Source: Neobacillus sp. FSL H8-0543 (lineage in GTDB: Bacteria > Bacillota > Bacilli > Bacillales > Cytobacillaceae). From it: 64,000 nucleotides of DNA. A program made the translations under genes and the position numbers. Under the pieces are notes generated by a model that was given only the letters and a program-made list of their open reading frames with translations, was not told the origin of the DNA and did no database searches. Where the stretch lies: positions 3,546,501 to 3,610,500 of the forward strand of contig NZ_CP151943.1 in assembly GCF_038592905.1 (NCBI RefSeq). Reading direction: 5' to 3'. Shown piece after piece: positions 49,820 through 60,079 of the stretch; the stretch's first letter is position 1; every line of letters starts with the position of its first letter.

Positions 49820-49882
49820 TTTACAATTAATTATGCATACTTTATACTCTTACTTAACAGAGTTAATTAATTAATTCTGTTA
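49820..49882 (+). promoter_or_regulatory. Promoter and ROK-type operator of the ROK regulator gene
   Basis: TTTACA at 49820, 17-bp spacer, TATACT at 49843. Seven bases further lies a 28-bp palindrome (49855-49882): TAACAGA and TCTGTTA arms extended by TTAATTAATTAA, with a single mismatched pair. The dyad covers the transcription start, so binding would block the promoter; this is what an autorepressing ROK protein would do. Confidence 0.7.
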
Positions 49883-49910
49883 TTAAAAACTAATTAATAG
49901 GTGTGTTTTT

Positions 49911-51128
49911 ATGAAAACTTTATTAAATAAAAAGAAAGGGACAAATTTTGAAGATGTACAAGAGATGAATCAGTCCCTACTCTTAAAACTACTGAAAAAA
50001 AATGAAATATGTACAAGAGCTGAACTTGCCAAAGAAACTGGGTTAACACAAGCATCCATTACTAAAATTATTTCGCATCTCATTAATCTAGGTGTTGTTC
50101 GGGAAGTTGGAATGGTGGAAGGGCTAAAAGGTAGAAGATCTATTGCTTTATCCCTAAATAGTAAGTTGTATAAAGTAATTGGGATTAAGTTAACAAGAGA
50201 GTCGTTTTCGATTGGGTTGTATGACATCTCTGGAATTGAATATAAAGTTCATACAGAGCCAATATTAGCGATGACAAATCCCACTACTATTTTGAAACGA
50301 ATGAAGTCAATTGTAAGTGATTTTACAAAAGTAGAAGAAGATATCGTTGCAATAGGTATTGCAATCCCTGGTCCATTCTTGAAAAATAATGAAAAAATAG
50401 CTCTTATTACACAATTTCCAGGCTGGGAGAGTATTAATTTTCGAGATGAATTTCATAAGGAATTTAATGTTCCTGTATTTATGGAACATGATGCTAATGC
50501 GGCGGCATTGTCTGAGTGGTGGTTTAACAACGAAAAACTTGAAAATAACGTCATGGTGTATTTGTTAGTGAATGATGGTGTAGGAGCAGGAATAATAGAA
50601 GATGGGCATTTATTTGTAGGCAGTCAAGGAATTGCAGGTGAGATTGGTCATATGACTATCGACTTTAATGGGAGAAAGTGTAGCTGTGGGAATTATGGCT
50701 GCTTAGAATGTTATTGCTCTACATTTGCCCTTTTAAATGATACTATCCAAGACTTATGTAATTTTGAAAAAAGCATTTTGAATCAAACAGACAATATAAC
50801 AGTTAGCGATATTTTTAAAGCTATGGATCAAGGTGATCCATTGGCTATAAAGATGATTGAACAAATCGGGGCATATTTGGGTTATGGAATAGTGAATATA
50901 GTTAACGTTTATAATCCAGACTTAATCGTTATCAGTGGCGTAATGGCTCGTGGAGGCGAGATCCTCTTATCTAAAATTCTTGAAACTATTAAGCCGAGAT
51001 TAGTATCTAGTCTTTATGAAAATGTAGAAATTAAATTAAGCGAATTTACCAATGATCCAATTCTTTACGGGGCAGCTGCTATAGCAACCGATAATTTCTT
51101 GAAAAATCCAGCCATCTTTTTACGCTAA
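49911..51128 (+). CDS. ROK-family transcriptional repressor (NagC/XylR type)
   Basis: 405 residues. Winged HTH at about 15-75 (EICTRAELAKETGLTQASIT; GVVREVGMVEGLKGRRSIAL). The ROK sugar-kinase-like fold follows, with the zinc signature GHMTIDFNGRKCSCGNYGCL, HDANAAALSEWW and a GAGIIEDGHL loop. In this class the sugar pocket senses a ligand and no kinase activity is expected. It is followed on the same strand by the phosphorylase-ECF-kinase-hydrolase operon, which it probably controls, though I found no second copy of its palindrome there. The inducer would be a sugar or sugar phosphate derived from the imported compound. Confidence 0.9.
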   Translation: MKTLLNKKKGTNFEDVQEMNQSLLLKLLKKNEICTRAELAKETGLTQASITKIISHLINLGVVREVGMVEGLKGRRSIALSLNSKLYKVIGIKLTRESFSIGLYDISGIEYKVHTEPILAMTNPTTILKRMKSIVSDFTKVEEDIVAIGIAIPGPFLKNNEKIALITQFPGWESINFRDEFHKEFNVPVFMEHDANAAALSEWWFNNEKLENNVMVYLLVNDGVGAGIIEDGHLFVGSQGIAGEIGHMTIDFNGRKCSCGNYGCLECYCSTFALLNDTIQDLCNFEKSILNQTDNITVSDIFKAMDQGDPLAIKMIEQIGAYLGYGIVNIVNVYNPDLIVISGVMARGGEILLSKILETIKPRLVSSLYENVEIKLSEFTNDPILYGAAAIATDNFLKNPAIFLR

Positions 51129-51287
51129 TCCATACGTTGAGGGATTACCATGAAAGGTGATTAAATAAATTAAAGTTCTCAAAGCAATTAGCAATCTTGG
51201 GAAAGATATTAACTTACTTCTTCAATTTTTTTTTGATAAATGAAGAGGTCAATGTGTTATTACAACAAAAGATTTTGGCATACTGAT

Positions 51288-51335
51288 TTTGAATATATAT
51301 TATTTAAATTAGATTCCGAATAATATATATTCAAA
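51288..51335. promoter_or_regulatory. Perfect 17-bp inverted repeat between ROK gene and operon
   Basis: TTTGAATATATATTATT at 51288-51304 and its exact complement at 51319-51335, with a 14-base loop. It could be the transcription terminator of the ROK gene (160 bases after its stop), an RNA hairpin of the leader, or an operator. AT-rich and without a U tract. No gene lies in 51129-51682. Confidence 0.5.
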
Positions 51336-51647
51336 TTTCCATGCATAAATGTTTTTTGATAAAGAGTGTATTGTGTAATAAGTACAATATAGATTAAACT
51401 ATTCACAAAATTAAGGGTATTCCCTCAGTAATCATAAAATCCTCTCAGGATCTTCATAATTGTAAATACATAAGTATTCCATGTTAAGAAACTTAAACTC
51501 ACATCAAGTGTCAGCCATTGAAAATTCAGATTTTTCCCTACATACTATATGGAATTTGATTACCCACAAAAATTGATACTTTAAGGGGGTGGTTTCCCAA
51601 CCAGAACATGTCTCAAAATTATGTATCTATTAACTATCGTCTAAAAA

Positions 51648-51661
51648 AGTAAGCGCTCTCA
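51648..51661. promoter_or_regulatory. Candidate cre (CcpA) site
   Basis: AGTAAGCGCTCTCA matches the TGAAAGCGCTTTCA model at 11 of 14 places and keeps the CG core. It lies 21 bases before the first gene of the operon, where CcpA would act as a roadblock, giving repression by preferred sugars. Confidence 0.4.
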
Positions 51662-51682
51662 ACAATTATAGGAGGTAAATTT

Positions 51683-52405
51683 ATGCTAATTGATAAAAAC
51701 AAACAATACCATGTTCAACTTTCGAAAGGGGATGTAGGTAGATATGTATTTGTACCTGGAGACCCTGGTAGAGTCGAACTAATTGCGAGCCTTTTTGATG
51801 AAGCATGGTTAGTTGCAGATAATCGAGAATATAAAACTTATACTGGTTATGTAGATGGAATAAAAGTATCCGTTTGTTCTACAGGGATTGGTGCACCATC
51901 GGCTAGTATCGCAATCGAAGAGTTAAGTAGAGTAGGAGCAGATACGTTCATTCGAATAGGTACAGCAGGTCCTATTCAAAAATATATAAATCGTGGTGAT
52001 GTAGTGATAGGTACAGCAGCGATTAGGGATGAAGGAACAAGTAAACAATACATGCCAATTGAATTTCCTGCTGTTGCAGATCTGGCAGTTTCAAATGCAC
52101 TATGTGAGGCAGCAGAAAAAATGGAAAAACCTTATCATGCTGGTGTTATTCAATCAAAGGATTCATTCTATGGTGAAGTAGAACCAGAGACTATGCCATT
52201 GGCGAGACAATTAAAAGAACGATGGAATTGTTGGATCGAAGGCGGAGCATTGGCTTCAGAAATGGAAGCCGCAGCCATTTATGTTGTTTCTTCTATTCGA
52301 AAACTACGTGCTGGGTGCATCTTAAATATTGATGGATCTATGGAAGAAACAATTAAAGTTGGAATTCAAGCTATTAAAATTCTTCATCAAAAAGATACAA
52401 AGTAA
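51683..52405 (+). CDS. Nucleoside phosphorylase, uridine-phosphorylase-like
   Basis: 240-residue member of the hexameric PNP/UDP family. GDPGR at 26-30 binds phosphate; CSTGIGAPSASIAIEELSRV and ADTFIRIGTAGPIQ are uridine-phosphorylase hallmarks; SKDSFYGEVEPETMP lies over the base site; EMEAAAIYVVSS contains the ribose-binding Glu-Met-Glu. It should split a nucleoside with phosphate into base and pentose-1-phosphate. AGGAGG precedes the ATG. First gene of a seven-gene operon with an ECF importer, so the nucleoside is likely the imported ligand or is made from it. Pyrimidine specificity is probable, not proven. Confidence 0.88.
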   Translation: MLIDKNKQYHVQLSKGDVGRYVFVPGDPGRVELIASLFDEAWLVADNREYKTYTGYVDGIKVSVCSTGIGAPSASIAIEELSRVGADTFIRIGTAGPIQKYINRGDVVIGTAAIRDEGTSKQYMPIEFPAVADLAVSNALCEAAEKMEKPYHAGVIQSKDSFYGEVEPETMPLARQLKERWNCWIEGGALASEMEAAAIYVVSSIRKLRAGCILNIDGSMEETIKVGIQAIKILHQKDTK

Positions 52406-52419
52406 TTGGATGGTGATTT

Positions 52420-53265
52420 TTGTTGAAAAAACCAATAATCGAGTTTAAAAATTTCTCTTACTTCTACTCGAGTAACGATTTACCTGCTCTAAAAGAAATT
52501 AATGCAACAATTGAAGAGGGCGAATTTGTCGGCCTGATTGGAAGAAATAAAGCTGGGAAATCGACTGCCTGTCTATCGATGGTAGGAATCATACCTCATG
52601 TTTTTGGTGGAGAATGGGTGGGCGATATCGAGATTAATGGGAAAGTAGTCAGTGCAGAAAATATATCAGATGTTACAGAGCTAGTAGGGATTGTTTTTCA
52701 AGACGCAGAAAGTCAATTCACTCAAGAAACAGTAGAAGATGAAATTGCCTTTGCCATGTGTAACATGGGATTTGCGAGAGAAGAAATGATTAAGAGAGTC
52801 CAAGAAGTAGCCATTAGTTGCAATTTGACAGGATTCCTTGATAGATCGCCCTTTCAATTGTCAGGTGGTCAGCAACAAAGGTTAGCGGTTGCTTGTTTGT
52901 TGGCATTAAAACCAAAGGTAATCATTCTAGATGAATCGACATCTCAACTTGATCCAATTGGAAGAGATGAAATCTTTTCTTTGGTTGCAGAACTTCATAA
53001 AGAAGGAAGAACCATCATTATGGCAGATCACAATATAGAAAAAATTGCTGAGTATAGCACGAAACTGATGGTTTTATTTGATGGAGAACTCAAAATGTTT
53101 GGACCAACAAAAGAAATTTTACAACAGAAGGAGCTCTTAAATCAGTATCATATTAGGCTCCCCCAAGTAACAGATGCTGCATACTATTTAAAAGAGGAAT
53201 ATAAAATCAATCAATTGCCTATTAACCTAGATGAGGCTATCCAAATATTTAAGAGTAATAGTTAA
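52420..53265 (+). CDS. ECF transporter ATPase, first subunit (EcfA1-like)
   Basis: 281 residues. Walker A GRNKAGKST at 41-49, Q-loop VFQDAESQFTQ, signature LSGGQQQR, Walker B VIILDESTSQLDP (Ser where Pro is common) and the H-loop ADHNIEK. The C-terminal region after 220 is the EcfA-specific extension. TTG start (52420 or 52423) with GGATGGTG upstream. It pairs with the next gene to form the ATPase heterodimer and lies 14 bases after the phosphorylase gene. Confidence 0.9.
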   Translation: MLKKPIIEFKNFSYFYSSNDLPALKEINATIEEGEFVGLIGRNKAGKSTACLSMVGIIPHVFGGEWVGDIEINGKVVSAENISDVTELVGIVFQDAESQFTQETVEDEIAFAMCNMGFAREEMIKRVQEVAISCNLTGFLDRSPFQLSGGQQQRLAVACLLALKPKVIILDESTSQLDPIGRDEIFSLVAELHKEGRTIIMADHNIEKIAEYSTKLMVLFDGELKMFGPTKEILQQKELLNQYHIRLPQVTDAAYYLKEEYKINQLPINLDEAIQIFKSNS

Positions 53266-53278
53266 GGGAGTAATAGTT

Positions 53279-54103
53279 ATGAAACCTATTATAGAAACGC
53301 AAAATCTAATCCACGAATATAAAGGAGGTGTTGTGGCACTAAAGGGAATTAATCTTAATATTTTTGAAAATGAGGTCATCAGTGTTATCGGGCAAAATGG
53401 GAGTGGAAAGACGACCCTTGTTAGACATTTTAATGGATTATTGAAGCCAACAAGGGGAAAGGTTTTGATTGAAGGAGAAGAAGCAATAAATAAGAGTGTC
53501 GGTTATTTATCAAAAAAGGTTGGATATGTTTTCCAAAATCCTAATCACCAAATTTTTTGTAAAACAGTTTTTGAGGAATTAACAGTGGGGCCTACTAATT
53601 TTAAATTTACTAAGGAAAAAACAAAAGAAAAGGTTGATTATGTTGTTGATTTATTTAATCTTCAAGACATATTAACAAAACATCCTATGACCCTTGATTA
53701 TACGAAGAAAAAGCTTGTTTCGATTGCATCTGTCATGACATTTGAACCTAAAGTTCTGATATTAGATGAACCTACAGGTGGACTGGATGTAGACGGAAGA
53801 GAATTATTAAAAAATACTATGAAGTTGCTTCATGAACAAGGAAATACCATAATTATGATCTCACATGATATGGATTTTGTAGCTGAGAACACAAATCGTA
53901 TTATTGTTATGTCGGAAGGACAAATATTATTGGACTCTAATGCTAATCATGTTTTCCAGCAACAAGAAATCTTAGATAAGGCTTGGATTGAACCTCCTCA
54001 AATCGCAATGCTAAGTTCAGCCATTGACCCAGACAGAATAACGCATTTAAGTGTAAATGAATTTGTTTCGGCATATAAAAATAAGCTAAATAAGATAATT
54101 TAA
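53279..54103 (+). CDS. ECF transporter ATPase, second subunit with degenerate signature
   Basis: 274 residues from the ATG at 53279 (GGGAGTAATAG upstream; the longer frame from 53231 overlaps the previous gene). Walker A GQNGSGKTT at 38-46, Q-loop VFQNPNHQIF, Walker B VLILDEPTGGLDV and H-loop ISHDMD are normal. Where LSGGQ should stand there is MTLDYTKKKLVSIAS. In the heterodimer the ATP site formed by this signature and EcfA1's Walker A should be weakened, leaving one competent site. Asymmetric ABC pairs are known in other families; here it may be a feature of a dedicated, non-shared ECF system. Confidence 0.9.
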   Translation: MKPIIETQNLIHEYKGGVVALKGINLNIFENEVISVIGQNGSGKTTLVRHFNGLLKPTRGKVLIEGEEAINKSVGYLSKKVGYVFQNPNHQIFCKTVFEELTVGPTNFKFTKEKTKEKVDYVVDLFNLQDILTKHPMTLDYTKKKLVSIASVMTFEPKVLILDEPTGGLDVDGRELLKNTMKLLHEQGNTIIMISHDMDFVAENTNRIIVMSEGQILLDSNANHVFQQQEILDKAWIEPPQIAMLSSAIDPDRITHLSVNEFVSAYKNKLNKII

Positions 54104-54121
54104 AAATGGGGGAGAAATAGA

Positions 54122-54742
54122 ATGGAAAGAAAAACTGCCCAAATCAATGCAAAAACTAGAGGAACTTATAGTTTAATATTAATTCCGATTGGTATTGCCA
54201 TTAATATTGTTGGTGGAGTCATTGCTGGCCAATTAAAACTTCCAATCTTCATGGACTCAATCGGAACAGTTATCATTGCGATTATTGCTGGTCCGTTAAT
54301 TGGTGGTATAACAGGGCTATCTACGAACGTAGTATTAGGTTTGATGCATGGTGATGTACTTGGAATGGCTTTTGGATTAGTTAATATGACAACCGGTATT
54401 ATAGTGGGTTTTATGGCTAAACATGGAAAGTTTAGGAACTGGATACATTTAGTCATTGCAACGCTTCTCCTAACATTATCTAATTCACTAATTGCTGCCC
54501 CAATTGTCGTTTTCCTTTATGGAGGTGTTAGTGGAGCTGGGATAGACCTTGTCGTGGCCGGATTCCTTGCTGCTGGTCAAGATATTTTCTCATCTGCATT
54601 TGTTGCACGCTTACCAGTTAACCTAATTGATAAAGGTATTGCCGTTATTATCGCATTCTTAATATTACTGAAATTACCAGACAATATGAAAAACCTTATG
54701 CCTCCGAAAAAAACTAAAAATAGTAATACAGTAGACATGTAA
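54122..54742 (+). CDS. ECF transporter S component (substrate-binding membrane protein)
   Basis: 206 residues with six hydrophobic helices. The pattern LPIFMDSIGTVIIAIIAGPL, then GGITGLSTNVVLGLMHGDVL, is typical of S components that bind small nucleoside- or vitamin-like molecules in a membrane pocket. The conserved Asp (FMDSIG) and Asn (STNVV) are candidates for ligand contacts. GGGGGAG precedes the ATG. It is encoded between the two ATPases and EcfT, so the transporter is of the dedicated (group I) type. Ligand unknown; a nucleoside or a related glycoside is inferred from the phosphorylase, kinase and hydrolase genes. Confidence 0.85.
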   Translation: MERKTAQINAKTRGTYSLILIPIGIAINIVGGVIAGQLKLPIFMDSIGTVIIAIIAGPLIGGITGLSTNVVLGLMHGDVLGMAFGLVNMTTGIIVGFMAKHGKFRNWIHLVIATLLLTLSNSLIAAPIVVFLYGGVSGAGIDLVVAGFLAAGQDIFSSAFVARLPVNLIDKGIAVIIAFLILLKLPDNMKNLMPPKKTKNSNTVDM

Positions 54743-54772
54743 AAATATTCTTTCCTAAAAGGGTTTGATTAG

Positions 54773-55546
54773 ATGTTACAAATAAAGGATAAAAATACAT
54801 TTTTCACAAGACTTTACCCAATGACGAAAATTTGGGCATCATTGGGGATAGTGATGGGGATCTTTTTATTCACAAACTATTATATTTCAACTATTGTGTT
54901 TGTACTTGCTATGGTTGCTATTTTAATAGAAGGTATGTTAAAAGAATTTAAAGTTATTCTAATAGCGGGGCTTCTCATCGGGGTTAGTTTATTTTTAATA
55001 CAAGGGATACTTAATCCAATTAATGAAACGGTTGTTTGGAATGTCATACCCGGAACGGACATTACTTTTTATAAAGAGGGATTAATTGTTGCAGTTAATG
55101 TATATTCACGAATTATGCCATTATTTGGAGTTCTATTTTTAGCAATAAGAACAATCAATATGACAGAATTTGGGGTTTCATTAAATAAAGCAGGACTTCC
55201 ATATAAGGTTGGTTTTGTTTTAACGTCTACATTTCAGATTATTCCTGTATTTAATAGGGAAATGCATCATATCATAAATGCTCAAAAGTCAAGAGGCCTT
55301 GAAACGGATGGGAATTTGTTAAGTAGAATGAAAGCATTTATCCCAATAATGGTTCCACTCATTTCAAATTCTTTAATGAAGGTTCAAAATCAAGTTATTG
55401 CATTAGAAAGCAAAGGTTTTAATGCAAATATAAAAAAAACACATTTTAGAAATCCGGAAAGGACAAAATATGATCGGTATATCGTAATATTTTCCGCTTT
55501 GTTTGGATTTGCTGGCTTGATATACAGAATTATGATATCTACTTAA
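54773..55546 (+). CDS. ecfT: ECF transporter transmembrane scaffold EcfT
   Basis: 257 residues: N-terminal helices, then the cytoplasmic coupling helices that contact the ATPases. The first coupling motif is AQKSRGLE (A-x-R-G type). The second is ALESKGFN, where the usual Arg is Lys. C-terminal helix YIVIFSALFGFAGLIYRIMI. The last 60 codons lie in a 372-bp unit that is repeated directly downstream, leaving this gene complete. Between EcfT and the kinase there is a structured hairpin region. Confidence 0.9.
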   Translation: MLQIKDKNTFFTRLYPMTKIWASLGIVMGIFLFTNYYISTIVFVLAMVAILIEGMLKEFKVILIAGLLIGVSLFLIQGILNPINETVVWNVIPGTDITFYKEGLIVAVNVYSRIMPLFGVLFLAIRTINMTEFGVSLNKAGLPYKVGFVLTSTFQIIPVFNREMHHIINAQKSRGLETDGNLLSRMKAFIPIMVPLISNSLMKVQNQVIALESKGFNANIKKTHFRNPERTKYDRYIVIFSALFGFAGLIYRIMIST

Positions 55547-55564
55547 AGGTAATTATTTAGTAGT

Positions 55565-55637
55565 GGGGCTGTCAATGCCAAAAGGATATTTGCCAATTGA
55601 ATAGAGTTTTACCAACCTTTTGGAGAACGGCAGCCCC
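55565..55637 (+). terminator. Nested hairpin between ecfT and kinase, attenuator-like
   Basis: GGGGCTG (55565) pairs with CAGCCCC (55631), enclosing CCAAAAGG (55578) with CCTTTTGG (55616); CTTTATT follows. This is a leaky terminator or a processing/stability element lowering expression of the kinase and hydrolase genes. A second exact copy lies at 55937-56009 because of the tandem duplication, so the effect would now be doubled. Confidence 0.6.
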
Positions 55638-55681
55638 CTTTATTAAAGTTATTGAAAATTACGAATTGGAGGTAGCAGATT

Positions 55682-55918
55682 ATGCTACTTGGTATTGATA
55701 TTGGTACTTCAAGTACAAAAGTAATACTTGTTAATTCAAATTCTTTAATGAAGGTTCAAAATCAAGTTATTGCATTAGAAAGCAAAGGTTTTAATGCAAA
55801 TATAAAAAAAACACATTTTAGAAATCCGGAAAGGACAAAATATGATCGGTATATCGTAATATTTTCCGCTTTGTTTGGATTTGCTGGCTTGATATACAGA
55901 ATTATGATATCTACTTAA
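55682..55918 (+). CDS. Chimeric mini-gene: kinase N-terminus fused to EcfT C-terminus
   Basis: 78 codons created by the tandem duplication: the kinase start with its full ribosome site (GGAGGTAGCAGATT) and first 18 residues (MLLGIDIGTSSTKVILVN), joined in frame to the last 60 residues of EcfT, including its final transmembrane helix. It is likely translated, because its start region is identical to that of the real kinase. It might be harmless or might interfere with EcfT assembly. Confidence 0.6.
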   Translation: MLLGIDIGTSSTKVILVNSNSLMKVQNQVIALESKGFNANIKKTHFRNPERTKYDRYIVIFSALFGFAGLIYRIMIST

Positions 55919-56053
55919 AGGTAATTATTTAGTAGTGGGGCTGTCAATGCCAAAAGGATATTTGCCAATTGAATAGAGTTTTACCAACCTTTTGGAGAAC
56001 GGCAGCCCCCTTTATTAAAGTTATTGAAAATTACGAATTGGAGGTAGCAGATT

Positions 56054-57484
56054 ATGCTACTTGGTATTGATATTGGTACTTCAAGTACAAAAGTAATACT
56101 TGTTAATAATGCTTTAGAAGTGATTTCAACAAAAAGGAAAGAATATACCATTGAAATCCCTAACTTAAATTATGCTGAACAAGATCCGAATACTTGGTGG
56201 AATTCTGTATGTGAGTGTATAAAAGCCATTCCAAATAAAGACTGTATTTCTGCAATTGGATTATCAGGTCAAATGCATGGAATTGTGGCTATTAATCGTG
56301 ATGGTAATCCGATTCGGCAAGCAATTATATGGTCAGATAATCGTTCAGTTGAGCAAACCAAAAAAATCCAGGTAATTAATTCAGATCCTACTAATTTTAT
56401 TGCAAATGGTTTTTTACTTCCCTCCCTTTTGTGGATACGAGAAAATGAACCAAATCTTTTTAAACAGATATATAAGGTGATGCTGCCAAAAGATTATATT
56501 CGGTATAAATTAACCGGACTAATTGGAACGGATCATAGTGATGCATGTGCAACGGGGGCTTATAGCTTTGAAAGGAAGGATTGGAATGATGAATTAATTG
56601 AAAAATTAGGACTTAATGTTTCGATCTTTCCAGAGATTAATCAATCGATGGATGTAGCTGGGATGATAGTATCTGATATTGCTAAGGAACTTGATTTGGG
56701 TGGTAGTACAGTTGTGGTGTATGGCGGATCCGATCATTCCATGCAATTAATTGGAAATGGGATATTTTCGGAAGGAATGATAAATTGTAACATTGGAACC
56801 GGAAGCCAAATTAGTATTACAACCAATGATTTTGAGTATGAGGTCTCTAAGCAACTAAACATATTTAGTCATGCAATTGAAAATAAATATAATATGGTTG
56901 GAACGAGTCTTAATGGTGGAATTGTTTTGCAGTGGTTAAATAACTTGTATGATAGGGATATTTCATATGAGCAAATGGATTTATTTGCTCAAAAAGTAAA
57001 TGTTGGAAGCGATGGCTTAAGATTTTTACCATATATTAATGGTGAACGGAATTTAGACCAAGACAAAAATATTAGAGGGATATGCTACGGATTATCTACC
57101 CACCATTCAAAACAACATCTTTTCCGAGCAGCAATGGAAGGAATGATATTAAGTTTACGCATAAAGTTAGAGGAAATTTGGGCTTTAGGTTTGTCATTTA
57201 ATAGGGTTATTGCTTCAGGAGGAGGGGCCAAGAGTTCTCTTCTTTTACAGATGCAAGCAGATATTTTTAACAGTGAAATTTATGTTTGTAAAACGGAAGA
57301 ACAGGCAGCACTAGGAGCAGCAATTATTGCTGGTCTCGCTACATCTGTTATTGATTCTCTTCAAACCGTTCTTAGATTATTTGAAGATAAAATGGTAGTT
57401 GTCGCTAGTCCGATTATTCAAAACGTTGAATTATATAATGAAGTTTATCAAGATTTTATCAATTTAAAGAATAAACTACTGTAA
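56054..57484 (+). CDS. FGGY-family carbohydrate kinase, xylulokinase-like
   Basis: 476 residues. N-terminal phosphate loop LLGIDIGTSSTKVIL; GLSGQMHG at 69-76; TDHSDACATGAYSFERKDWN, the segment that separates xylulokinases from glycerol kinases; YGGSDHSMQLIG with the expected catalytic Asp; C-terminal ASGGGAKSSLLLQMQADIF. It should phosphorylate a ketopentose or related polyol with ATP. No pentose isomerase is encoded beside it, which argues against ordinary xylose use. Its place after the ECF genes and before the GH172-type hydrolase suggests that it traps the sugar freed by that hydrolase. Confidence 0.88.
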   Translation: MLLGIDIGTSSTKVILVNNALEVISTKRKEYTIEIPNLNYAEQDPNTWWNSVCECIKAIPNKDCISAIGLSGQMHGIVAINRDGNPIRQAIIWSDNRSVEQTKKIQVINSDPTNFIANGFLLPSLLWIRENEPNLFKQIYKVMLPKDYIRYKLTGLIGTDHSDACATGAYSFERKDWNDELIEKLGLNVSIFPEINQSMDVAGMIVSDIAKELDLGGSTVVVYGGSDHSMQLIGNGIFSEGMINCNIGTGSQISITTNDFEYEVSKQLNIFSHAIENKYNMVGTSLNGGIVLQWLNNLYDRDISYEQMDLFAQKVNVGSDGLRFLPYINGERNLDQDKNIRGICYGLSTHHSKQHLFRAAMEGMILSLRIKLEEIWALGLSFNRVIASGGGAKSSLLLQMQADIFNSEIYVCKTEEQAALGAAIIAGLATSVIDSLQTVLRLFEDKMVVVASPIIQNVELYNEVYQDFINLKNKLL

Positions 57485-57498
57485 ATAGAGGTGAAAAT

Positions 57499-58611
57499 AT
57501 GAGTTTATTAAATCAATTACCATTTGAACTCGGTGGTGTTACTCGGCAAATTTCACCAGAAAATCCTAAGGGTGAAAAAGGAAAAGCCTGCTTATGGGAG
57601 CCCAATCCTGGGGATCCTTTTCTCGAACATAGTGGTCCTGCTGAGGATTTGGGTAAAGGCTATAAAGTAAGACCGTTTATAAATATTCGATCGGGTGAAA
57701 CAGCAGTATTGGCAGATATTGAAGGAATGGGTATTATCAATTATTTTTTTATAACTAGTAGTCTAGAAAATTATAGCGAACTTGTATTAAGAATTTATTG
57801 GGATAATGAAGAAGTCCCTTCTGTTGAAGTTCCATTAGGAGCATTCTTTGCAATGGGTCATGATTTTGCAGCACATTTGGTGAATTCTATACCTGTGGTT
57901 GTCGCTCCTAAGAAAGGTTGTACCTGTTATTGGCAGATGCCATTTCGCAAAAAAGCTTATATAACATTAACAAATGAAGGTCCAATTGATGCCTTTATAG
58001 TGGCTTACAAAATTCAGTATAAGCTAAAAGAAGTTCCGGAAAACACGGGTTACTTCCATGCACAATACAGAAGAAGCATAACGAGTCTTGATGATCCTAA
58101 CCATACAATTGTGAGTGATATCATAGGTAAAGGTAGCTATGTTGGTACATATTTAGCTTGGAACGCATTGTCCAGTAATTGGTGGGGAGAGGGGGAAGTG
58201 AAGTTTTATTTAGATGGAGATAAAGAGTACCCAACGATGGCAGATACAGGAACCGAAGATTATTTTGGTGGAGCATGGGGATTTTCTGATATTAATTCGA
58301 ATAAGGAAACATTTCAAAATAATGAACAAGCTTTTAGCTATCCATACGTAGGAATGCCACTAGCGAAGACGAATAATCCCGCTGGACCAAGAAAATACAG
58401 TTTATATAGATGGCATTTGCTCGATTCGATTGGGTTTGAAACGGATTTAAAAGTTACTGTGCAGACTCTTGGGTGGTATCCAAACTTTCCTGAGTATAAA
58501 AAATATAAACCAATTAGTGAAGACATTGCTTCCGTTGCTTACTGGTATCAGCTCGAGCCACATAACCCATTTCCAAAGTTACCTGATTTTAAGGCTCGGT
58601 GGGATAGGTAG
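57499..58611 (+). CDS. DUF2961 / GH172-type glycoside hydrolase
   Basis: 370 residues without signal peptide, covering one DUF2961 (now GH172) domain of usual length: GPGCI-like N-terminal replaced here by AEDLGKGYKVRPFI, then EVPLGAFFAMGHDFAAHLVN, WQMPFRKKAYITLTNEGP, and the signature ADTGTEDYFGGAW with Glu253 in the GTEDYF motif, a candidate catalytic residue. Characterised GH172 enzymes act on D-fructofuranosides and D-arabinofuranosides. Being cytoplasmic and in an importer operon, it should cleave an imported furanoside. GAGGTG precedes the ATG. Terminator 70 bases downstream. Confidence 0.87.
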   Translation: MSLLNQLPFELGGVTRQISPENPKGEKGKACLWEPNPGDPFLEHSGPAEDLGKGYKVRPFINIRSGETAVLADIEGMGIINYFFITSSLENYSELVLRIYWDNEEVPSVEVPLGAFFAMGHDFAAHLVNSIPVVVAPKKGCTCYWQMPFRKKAYITLTNEGPIDAFIVAYKIQYKLKEVPENTGYFHAQYRRSITSLDDPNHTIVSDIIGKGSYVGTYLAWNALSSNWWGEGEVKFYLDGDKEYPTMADTGTEDYFGGAWGFSDINSNKETFQNNEQAFSYPYVGMPLAKTNNPAGPRKYSLYRWHLLDSIGFETDLKVTVQTLGWYPNFPEYKKYKPISEDIASVAYWYQLEPHNPFPKLPDFKARWDR

Positions 58612-58681
58612 TGATTTCATATAGATGCAGAATAGCCTTCAAACCTATTTTTCTAAAACTTTTTAATAAGTAAGATAAATG

Positions 58682-58717
58682 ATAAGAAGCTGATCAAAAT
58701 TTTGGTCAGCTTCTTAT
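58682..58717 (+). terminator. Terminator of the phosphorylase-ECF-kinase-hydrolase operon
   Basis: ATAAGAAGCTGA and TCAGCTTCTTAT arms around TCAAAATTTTGG, which itself can pair; ATTGTGTTG follows. Seventy bases after the last stop codon. Confidence 0.75.
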
Positions 58718-58928
58718 TGTGTTGCTGCAGATTAATTTATTTTCTTAATACGCCCATTTTTAAAAATTAGGTGACTGTATTGAATAATAAAATGAGTTTT
58801 AAGTGCTGTTACCACCTGGATTATGTCGAGATTTGTAGAATGTATTAATAGGAGAGCTTATCATTTGAGATAATGATAGACACTCCTATTTGTATTAAAG
58901 AATTATACATGTTTACTATCGAAATTCT

Positions 58929-58980
58929 AGTGCCTGACCCCCGGTGAATTAAAGCGTTTCAGCGCCGGGGGGCAGGCACC
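58929..58980. repeat. Family-A palindrome, copy 6
   Basis: AGTGCCTGACCCCC-GGTG and CGCC-GGGGGGCAGGCACC, centre GAATTAAAGCGTTTCAG in common with copy 2. Confidence 0.85.
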
Positions 58981-58989
58981 ACTTTTGTA

Positions 58990-59025
58990 TGCGGTAACGC
59001 TTTGCCACAATGGGGGTCAGGCACC
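58990..59025. repeat. Family-A palindrome, right half
   Basis: TGCGGTAACGCTTTGCCAC and TGGGGGTCAGGCACC, of the same subtype as copy 5 at 46953, ten bases after copy 6. The two halves look like products of recombination between copies. The remaining gap to 59206 holds nothing recognised. Confidence 0.75.
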
Positions 59026-59206
59026 AGATTATGGGTTTTAGTAAAATATTGAATTGTGATTTATGTTCCCTCGGACTAAAAAATTTGGGGGAATTTTGCT
59101 TTATGGGGTCTAACTTTTACGTATAACAAAGACGTTTTGCGTAAAGATTTATTGTCTTTGATAGCTTTGAGAAAGAATAAATTTCATTGTTTTGTGTAGG
59201 AAATAT

Positions 59207-59317: not shown

Positions 59318-60079
59318 ATGGATGTTTCACATATTGTTGAAGGTATTAATGATCTTTTTAATGTAACAAATAAGGAAATTTATTCTAGTGAATCTGGGAT
59401 TACATACCATGCAGATAAAAAAGTTAAAAAAATAGGATACTGTGTTAACCTAACGCTTGAAACTATAGAGGAAGCAAGAATTCATGGAGTTGATATGATG
59501 GTGACACACCACGATGCATGGGATGAAATATATGGATTAAGAGTGGCATGCATAGAAAAACTAGCAGAGTTTGGTATAAGTCACTATTATAACCATTTGC
59601 CACTTGATGACTGTAACTTTGGAACAAATGATAGTTTATTAAAAAAATTGAATTTAGAAACTGTTAAAAAAACCCACGAATGGGAAGGGTTATATTTTGG
59701 TAGAATCGCAGAATATGATGAGGAAATTGAATTTAATGAATTAGTAAAAAATATTGAAAATCTACTTGAAGAACCAGTTAGATACTGGCAGTTTAATAAC
59801 AAAAAGGTGAAACGAGTGGGCTTAGTCTGTGGTAATGGAGGGCCAACAGCTTGCCTTAAGGAAGCAGTTGAAAATAAGTGTGATGTATACATTACAGGTG
59901 AATGTAATTTGTATACGATTCAATATGCAAAGTTTAAAGAGATAAATCTTATCATTGGGAGTCATACTTTCACAGAATTCTTTGGAATTGAAAGCCTAGC
60001 ATTGAAATTGAATGAGAATATGAAAGAACTTGAAGTAGTGAAACTTAATGAAGAGCATTATGAAGCGAATATAAAATAA
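59318..60079 (+). CDS. Nif3-like dinuclear metal-centre family protein
   Basis: 253 residues with the NIF3/DUF34 pattern: VKKIGYCVNLTLETIEEARI, then VTHHDAWDEIYG (the HH metal site), YYNHLPLDDCNFGTNDSLLK, GLVCGNGGPTACLKEAV, and DVYITGECNLY with IIGSHTFTEFFGIESLA near the C-terminus (metal-binding His and Glu). GTP cyclohydrolase-related or metal-insertase roles have been proposed for the family, but the function is not settled. It lacks the extra PII-like middle domain of the longer YqfO type, being a short form. GAGGAGG precedes the ATG. Confidence 0.88.
   Translation: MDVSHIVEGINDLFNVTNKEIYSSESGITYHADKKVKKIGYCVNLTLETIEEARIHGVDMMVTHHDAWDEIYGLRVACIEKLAEFGISHYYNHLPLDDCNFGTNDSLLKKLNLETVKKTHEWEGLYFGRIAEYDEEIEFNELVKNIENLLEEPVRYWQFNNKKVKRVGLVCGNGGPTACLKEAVENKCDVYITGECNLYTIQYAKFKEINLIIGSHTFTEFFGIESLALKLNENMKELEVVKLNEEHYEANIK

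Follow-up and report, generated by a model that had tools for sequence, protein, structure and literature searches.

The window analysed here comprises 64,000 nucleotides of Neobacillus sp. FSL H8-0543 (NZ_CP151943.1, positions 3,546,501 to 3,610,500). On its + strand, from 49911 to 58611, it carries eight consecutive genes with every reading frame open, in the order ROK repressor, uridine-phosphorylase-like nucleoside phosphorylase (UPase), EcfA1, EcfA2, S component, EcfT, FGGY kinase and GH172 hydrolase. We read this cluster as an operon under ROK repression that serves the breakdown of an unusual nucleoside, with all genes acting in one nucleoside-conjugate pathway, and give this reading a probability of about 45%. 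The importer half, a transporter of the energy-coupling factor (ECF) type, is most likely a nucleoside transporter. This is well supported by context, namely by the UPase, nucleoside hydrolase and TudS-like genes that neighbour related S components. It is one member of a wider group linked to nucleosides; the sugar-removing half, formed by GH172 and the kinase, is new in this setting. The genes are listed below, whereby we judge the start of EcfA2 to be best placed at 53279.

49911..51128, + strand: ROK-family repressor, 405 aa, with helix-turn-helix (HTH) and ROK domain (PF00480)
51683..52405, + strand: uridine-phosphorylase-like nucleoside phosphorylase (UPase), 240 aa, with K..GEV motif and shortened flap loop (PF01048)
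52420..53265, + strand: EcfA1 ATPase, TTG start, with Walker A GRNKAGKS and LSGGQ
53279..54103, + strand: EcfA2 ATPase, with Walker A/B and LDYTKKK for LSGGQ
54122..54742, + strand: ECF S component, CD3073-like, 206 aa (PF12822)
54773..55546, + strand: EcfT transmembrane coupling protein with SRG and SKG motifs (PF02361)
56054..57484, + strand: FGGY carbohydrate kinase, xylulokinase-like, 476 aa (TIGR01312)
57499..58611, + strand: GH172 (DUF2961) protein, putative furanosidase, 370 aa, with Glu231 and Glu253 (PF11175)

Gene calls as well as Pfam and NCBIfam domains agree with the eight families and the single strand given by an earlier inspection of the letters (hereafter the sequence-only reading). 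The same eight genes, in identical order and strand, are present in Pseudoneobacillus rhizosphaerae (L038) and Evansella tamaricis (L039), so that the linkage of kinase and GH172 to the importer extends over three genera. The sequence-only reading had made its case depend on such a linkage in other genomes, and it is found in two further genera, in loci reached via GH172: a scan of a genome collection with the GH172 protein as query returned 35 loci, two of them with the other seven genes. Of the eight proteins, GH172 has changed least: pairwise comparison of the three clusters gives 82-83% identity for it, 78-80% for both the UPase and the S component, 70-76% for EcfA1, 66-70% for EcfA2, 64-69% for EcfT, 60-61% for ROK and 50-54% for FGGY.

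Close relatives are scarce. The best S component reaches 41% identity among 60 further genomes of the genus and 42% among 159 genomes of the Virgibacillus family, so neither set adds a member to the S clade. In 397 genomes of the order no GH172 exceeds 51%, the window's own excepted. Since no close S component (genus) or GH172 (order) was found, the cluster is sporadic, and it has probably moved horizontally. Contigs of equal size hint at more linked copies. Relatives of the S component and of FGGY, belonging to the same clades, lie on contigs of 97,780 and 72,528 bases, and GH172 P0106 and FGGY P0231 lie on contigs of 21,802 bases; a third shared contig size, 70,074, is Evansella tamaricis itself.

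The S component, EcfT and the ATPases are encoded within one operon, as is typical of ECF group I. The SRG and SKG motifs of EcfT were found by pattern in all three clusters, the match to the classical Ala-Arg-Gly form not being exact. The nearest named family of the S component is that of the CD3073 (NF045596)/CD3072 TudS-related desulfidase (NF045597) pair. Against NF045596 the S components of the three clusters score 147.6, 146.3 and 137.2 bits, under the cut-off of 180. The sequence-only reading had named grouping with a known vitamin transporter as an outcome that would refute it; in NCBIfam the S components of the three clusters match the CD3073 model alone and no vitamin model.

We surveyed 29 neighbourhoods of S relatives, a non-random sample made up of top hits in the genus and order and in a second family. 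Lists of open reading frames (ORFs) were examined for 21 of them, the other eight through tblastn alone. The tblastn tally of nucleoside genes used queries from some of the surveyed loci, so the gene types were chosen after looking. An own EcfT is present in 19 of the 29. In 16 of the 19, a gene for a UPase-like enzyme, for an inosine-uridine nucleoside hydrolase or for both lies within the fetched stretch. Confirmed examples are two hydrolases (PF01156), one deoxyribose-phosphate aldolase (TIGR00126) and one ribokinase (TIGR02152). The window-type S genes, with their own EcfT and ATPases, differ from the other ten of the 29, which are solitary and in all ten cases adjoined by a TudS-like gene. 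In L075-L078, L084, L086 and L087 the solitary S gene with its TudS-like neighbour is of the CD3073 type, in seven of seven loci. Two of the TudS-like proteins were checked and match the NCBIfam 'CD3072 family TudS-related putative desulfidase'. The pairs of the seven loci suggest uptake of a thiopyrimidine or thionucleoside. In Lachnospiraceae many weaker S matches lie within open frames of ~700-1600 aa, a size that suggests fusion of the S component with further parts of the ECF machinery.

The nearest outgroup is G605 (L150), whose operon DeoR-deoC-UPase-A1-A2-S-T shows the core order of the window. In the S tree G605 and the three clusters form one clade (support 100/99), and the four S proteins of this gene order score 137-153 bits against the CD3073 model. 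An importer of the same type is found elsewhere in the window's genome (L073) in the order LacI-like regulator, nucleoside hydrolase, S, T, A1, A2, ribokinase. Here hydrolase and ribokinase stand where the window has phosphorylase, FGGY kinase and GH172.

The UPase scores 277.5 bits against TIGR01718, just under the cut-off of 280.3. The nearest solved structure is the uridine phosphorylase 3qpb of Streptococcus pyogenes (256.6 bits). Both enzymes share the Lys of the K..G motif, whereas the base site has E-V in the window and Q-H, the Gram-positive type, in 3qpb. In the S. pyogenes enzyme the Lys reportedly contacts uracil O2 and the residues aligned with Q/H the rest of the base, as Tran et al. 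2011 are said to have described. All four UPases of this gene order (window, L038, L039 and the ECF-linked one of G605) carry KDSFYGEV. In Lachnospiraceae, where 335 of 397 genomes gave matches, K..GQH was read in 29 of the 30 best loci returned, the thirtieth not being read by the pattern, and the UPases of L151-L153 have GQH too. The flap loop of the window's UPase is ~11 residues shorter than that of the Vescimonas UPase. A tree built from 17 rows, 16 of them distinct, unites the window and the other ECF-side short-loop UPases in a clade of eight rows (100/99). A single clade of E-V UPases was not rejected (approximately unbiased test, p-AU 0.08); E-V may have arisen once or twice.

Owing to the E-V change in the base site, a plain uridine-like base would be less likely. 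With a carboxylate replacing the amide and no His beside it, the altered site would suit a 4-amino pyrimidine more than uracil, and our guess for it is a cytosine-type (4-amino) base. A plasmid search with the UPase gave a best place of 49% identity with no ECF gene in its annotated stretch. The G605 locus has a second UPase, of the GQH type, directly 3' of a PfkB-type kinase gene (16309-17954 in L150) and ~5 kb from the ECF operon; possibly it belongs to another nucleoside route.

In the ATPases the LSGGQ that group I leads one to expect in both subunits is found in one, and the pair is still ECF-transporter-like. EcfA1 has Walker A and LSGGQ. EcfA2 keeps Walker A/B, with LDYTKKK where its two best solved relatives have LSGGQ or LSFGQ. 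LSGGQ is missing in 17 of 17 aligned EcfA2 rows, window included (LDYT.KK, LPLS.RKF and similar), and each of 22 operons (window, L038, L039 and the 19 S relatives with own EcfT) has one ATPase with and one without it. Because one ATPase of each pair lacks LSGGQ, one composite ATP site should be degenerate and the ATPase asymmetric. This would be a mechanistic variant of the solved group II ECF module, whose closed form has the signature motif engaged by each of the two ATPase subunits (PMC10368641; this and all further papers given by PMC number are cited from extracts). The extracts of the literature covered hold no mention of such ECF ATPase asymmetry.

The GH172 assignment is clear (PF11175, 268.1 bits vs a cut-off of 27). 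By far the nearest solved relative is the exo-alpha-D-arabinofuranosidase ExoMA1 (8ic8) with 263 bits, while the next three reach 127-129 bits; the score of alphaFFase1 is 129 bits. E231 and E253 align with E270 and E291, the catalytic glutamates of alphaFFase1 (PMC8605356). As no secretion signal was seen by eye, GH172 should act inside the cell, in line with the cytoplasmic enzyme of the sequence-only reading. The kinase scores 408.6 bits against TIGR01312 XylB, above the cut-off of 380.25; its GQMHG and GGSD sequences are retained.

A tblastn comparison across the 35 GH172 loci finds FGGY in L038 and L039 only. Likewise, display of 23 further GH172 neighbourhoods (11 + 12, with ~5.5-6.5 kb on either flank unless the contig ends sooner, and without the GH172 ORF in L187 and L189) flagged no FGGY kinase. 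Chloroflexota GH172 relatives (60-62%) were considered as further copies and set aside, no FGGY kinase being shown adjoining. In one of the 23 (L193, 9037-11692) genes for a SIS-domain protein and a PfkB kinase lie 3' of GH172 and might form a D-arabinose route with it.

Combining these parts, we propose the following course. The S component with its own EcfT-EcfA1-EcfA2 would import a nucleoside that bears a second furanose on its pentose. Cytoplasmic GH172 would remove this second furanose, either D-arabinose or a ketopentose, and the FGGY kinase would phosphorylate it. The phosphorylase would probably cleave the N-glycosidic bond to a base that is not plain uracil and so release pentose-1-phosphate. 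The freed sugar may in addition be the signal that releases the ROK repressor, which fits with ROK regulators usually sensing sugars. Stripping of a second furanose from an imported nucleoside by GH172 is a plausible but conjectural step. The pathway in its complete form is doubtful: import and use of a disaccharide (furanosylated) nucleoside whose base is a 4-amino pyrimidine or otherwise modified, through an asymmetric ECF transporter, a re-set UPase pocket and GH172 feeding an FGGY pentulokinase. If true, it would establish a family of ECF transporters for nucleosides and give GH172 a new role. We know of no natural nucleoside conjugate of the GH172/FGGY kind as a bacterial nutrient; the GH172/FGGY add-on points to such a conjugate.

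The following DNA elements accompany the genes.

49854..49868, + strand: predicted ROK operator TTAACAGAGTTAATT, 42 bp upstream of the ROK start codon
51648..51661, + strand: weak sequence AGTAAGCGCTCTCA resembling a catabolite-responsive element (cre), upstream of the UPase gene, with 2 mismatches to TGWAARCGYTWWCA
55363-55734 / 55735-56106, no strand: exact 372-bp tandem duplication of EcfT 3' end, spacer and FGGY 5' end
55565..55637, + strand: terminator-like hairpin GGGGCUGUC...GGCAGCCCC in the EcfT-FGGY spacer, with a second copy at 55937-56009
58682-58717, + strand: terminator-like inverted repeat, 18-bp, 94%, downstream of the last gene

The ROK repressor has its HTH, its ROK domain and a conserved predicted operator. 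The operator motif TTAACNNNGTTAATT forms a dyad, matches once in the 64-kb window (0.03 expected) and also lies upstream of ROK in L038 and L039. The operator that the sequence-only reading had ascribed to the ROK gene is hence retained in both relatives, and the terminator it had placed at the end of the cluster is the inverted repeat listed last. Its short gaps throughout did not hold: ROK and UPase are 554 bp apart, EcfT and FGGY 507 bp, the latter because of the 372-bp duplication. Despite this duplication, which is either a recent event or an assembly error, the frames of EcfT and FGGY both stay open. With respect to the cre consensus TGWAARCGYTWWCA, 15 matches with ≤2 mismatches occur window-wide on both strands, making the site of the window a weak one; that of L038 is better, with 1 mismatch. 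Operon-wide CcpA control was considered and rejected, given the 2 mismatches and the frequency of such sites in the window.

A single pathway has to be weighed against several observations, which are given, with the points in its favour, in this and the next three paragraphs. The alternative that survives best, although we hold it to be less likely than a single pathway, assumes two modules under one regulator. ECF and UPase would serve the salvage of an ordinary or modified nucleoside, while GH172 and FGGY would act on a separate furanoside, for example alpha-D-arabinofuranosyl oligosaccharides, supplied by another transporter. In favour of it, a terminator-like hairpin, strong in the window, separates EcfT and FGGY in all three clusters (those of L038 and L039 differ from the window's), so that a single uninterrupted transcript is not assured. 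Moreover, the operon of G605 has the first module without kinase and GH172. Hairpin and G605 together allow two functions under one regulator. FGGY, at merely 50-54% identity, diverges much faster than GH172. As the clusters were found through GH172, in a scan that could not reveal importer loci lacking it, the constant company of GH172 is partly built in. Two further proteins of the S clade, in Neobacillus notoginsengisoli and Virgibacillus sp. W0430 (P0009 and P0010, 75% and 71%), may belong to loci without the kinase/GH172 pair, because the sizes of their contigs (66,526 and 66,341 bases) match none among the 120 listed FGGY and GH172 relatives. What speaks for one system, in contrast, is that the eight genes stay together in three genera, with one operator and no second transporter in the set. 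The outstanding conservation of GH172 and the equal contig sizes of S/FGGY and GH172/FGGY relatives likewise argue against separate modules. From the sequence-only reading, nucleoside import is strengthened by the S survey; glycosylation of the imported molecule is conjectural, and the service of all genes to one substrate is put in doubt by G605 and the hairpin.

Further points concern the single nucleoside-conjugate pathway itself. Three S relatives with own EcfT (L074, L155 and L160) show neither UPase nor nucleoside hydrolase in the fetched stretch. As the sequence-only reading had stated, isomerase, deaminase and mutase are absent from the eight-gene set, the rest of the genome not having been searched for an isomerase. 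Release of a ketopentose by GH172 would explain the absence of an isomerase; if D-arabinose is released, the isomerase must come from elsewhere. Our literature search found no pathway for such a nucleoside.

Improbable in our view is the release of fructose by GH172 from an alpha-D-fructofuranoside, comparable to the use of difructose anhydride by Bifidobacterium dentium, with FGGY as a fructose-type kinase. In Evansella tamaricis GH172 has on its 3' side a PfkB-type gene, broken into two ORFs, together with a GH32 gene (L039, 11497-13800). Both point to fructose, and the alphaFFase1 gene of B. dentium adjoins a GH32 gene, too (PMC8605356). Such neighbours are present in only one of the three clusters, however, and the kinase fits the xylulokinase model. 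GH172 itself is much nearer to ExoMA1 than to alphaFFase1, the two belonging to distinct clades (PMC10509167).

Less probable still is one unusual pentose, arabino- or ketopentofuranosyl, that is converted by the phosphorylase to its 1-phosphate; GH172 would hydrolyse the latter or the nucleoside, and the kinase would take the free pentose or pentulose. A single sugar would then account for all three enzymes, and XylB-like kinases do take pentuloses. Yet phosphorylase and hydrolase would become redundant, and we know of no GH172 enzyme acting on sugar phosphates or N-glycosides. That GH172 enzymes accept aldo- as well as keto-furanosides is in favour of this pentose (PMC8605356, PMC10509167). 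Distant members of the S group have other neighbours. A 3H/HTH_11 regulator lies immediately 3' of a UPase-S-T-A operon (L161, 10731-11261), a similar regulator, nadC and nadA lie near a solitary S gene (L159, 8709-12339), and a ribBA-like gene is found at the edge of L154. We take the two regulators to be NiaR-like. Nicotinamide riboside is a nucleoside, and the regulator of L161 and the regulator and nad genes of L159 point to it or to vitamin B3 in these distant branches, whose members may carry nicotinamide riboside or a vitamin. The sole PDB relatives of the window's S component are folate S components, with weak matches (E 0.0016 and 0.19), and the solitary S of L075 gives a sub-threshold folate-family match, the only one among the proteins scanned. 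Despite these vitamin-related matches and neighbours, transport by this cluster of a vitamin or vitamin nucleoside such as nicotinamide riboside, to be processed by its enzymes, is unlikely and the least probable of all readings, as the S components of the three clusters and G605 match no NCBIfam vitamin model, L161 and L159 branch elsewhere in the S tree, L161 has a different type of UPase, an Rfam scan of the window gave no match, and GH172 and a pentulokinase are not needed for a vitamin.

Beyond the terminal inverted repeat, the window contains an imperfect 38-nt inverted repeat with the ends GTGCCTGACCCCC and GGGGGTCAGGCACCA (58926-59028), possibly a dispersed repeat element. The gene of a DUF34/NIF3 family protein is located immediately 3' of the cluster (59318-60079).

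ECF transporters are described for micronutrients (vitamins, metals) and queuosine-type molecules (PMC11477304, PMC10368641). Apart from queuosine uptake by QrtT, no nucleoside ECF transport was found in the open-licence literature, by which its being unpublished is not shown. A nucleoside-tied S group would add nucleosides as a class of ECF ligands, and the CD3073 family, so far without an assigned role, would gain a testable function. Concerning the sugar-removing half, ExoMA1 cleaves fragments of mycobacterial D-arabinan and belongs to a gene cluster of its own (PMC10509167), whereas its relative in the window is part of a nucleoside-type operon. For the importer half the counterpart is QrtT of Clostridioides difficile, the ECF S component for preQ1, queuine and queuosine (PMC11477304). 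The window's S component is likened to it by description, its match in NCBIfam being to the CD3073 model alone. QrtT differs in its partners, which act on queuosine and replace UPase, kinase and GH172, and in having the core ECF module outside its three-gene operon. Common to both is a nucleoside-importing S component, most likely so in the window, in an operon with enzymes that open, or would open, that nucleoside (PMC11477304).

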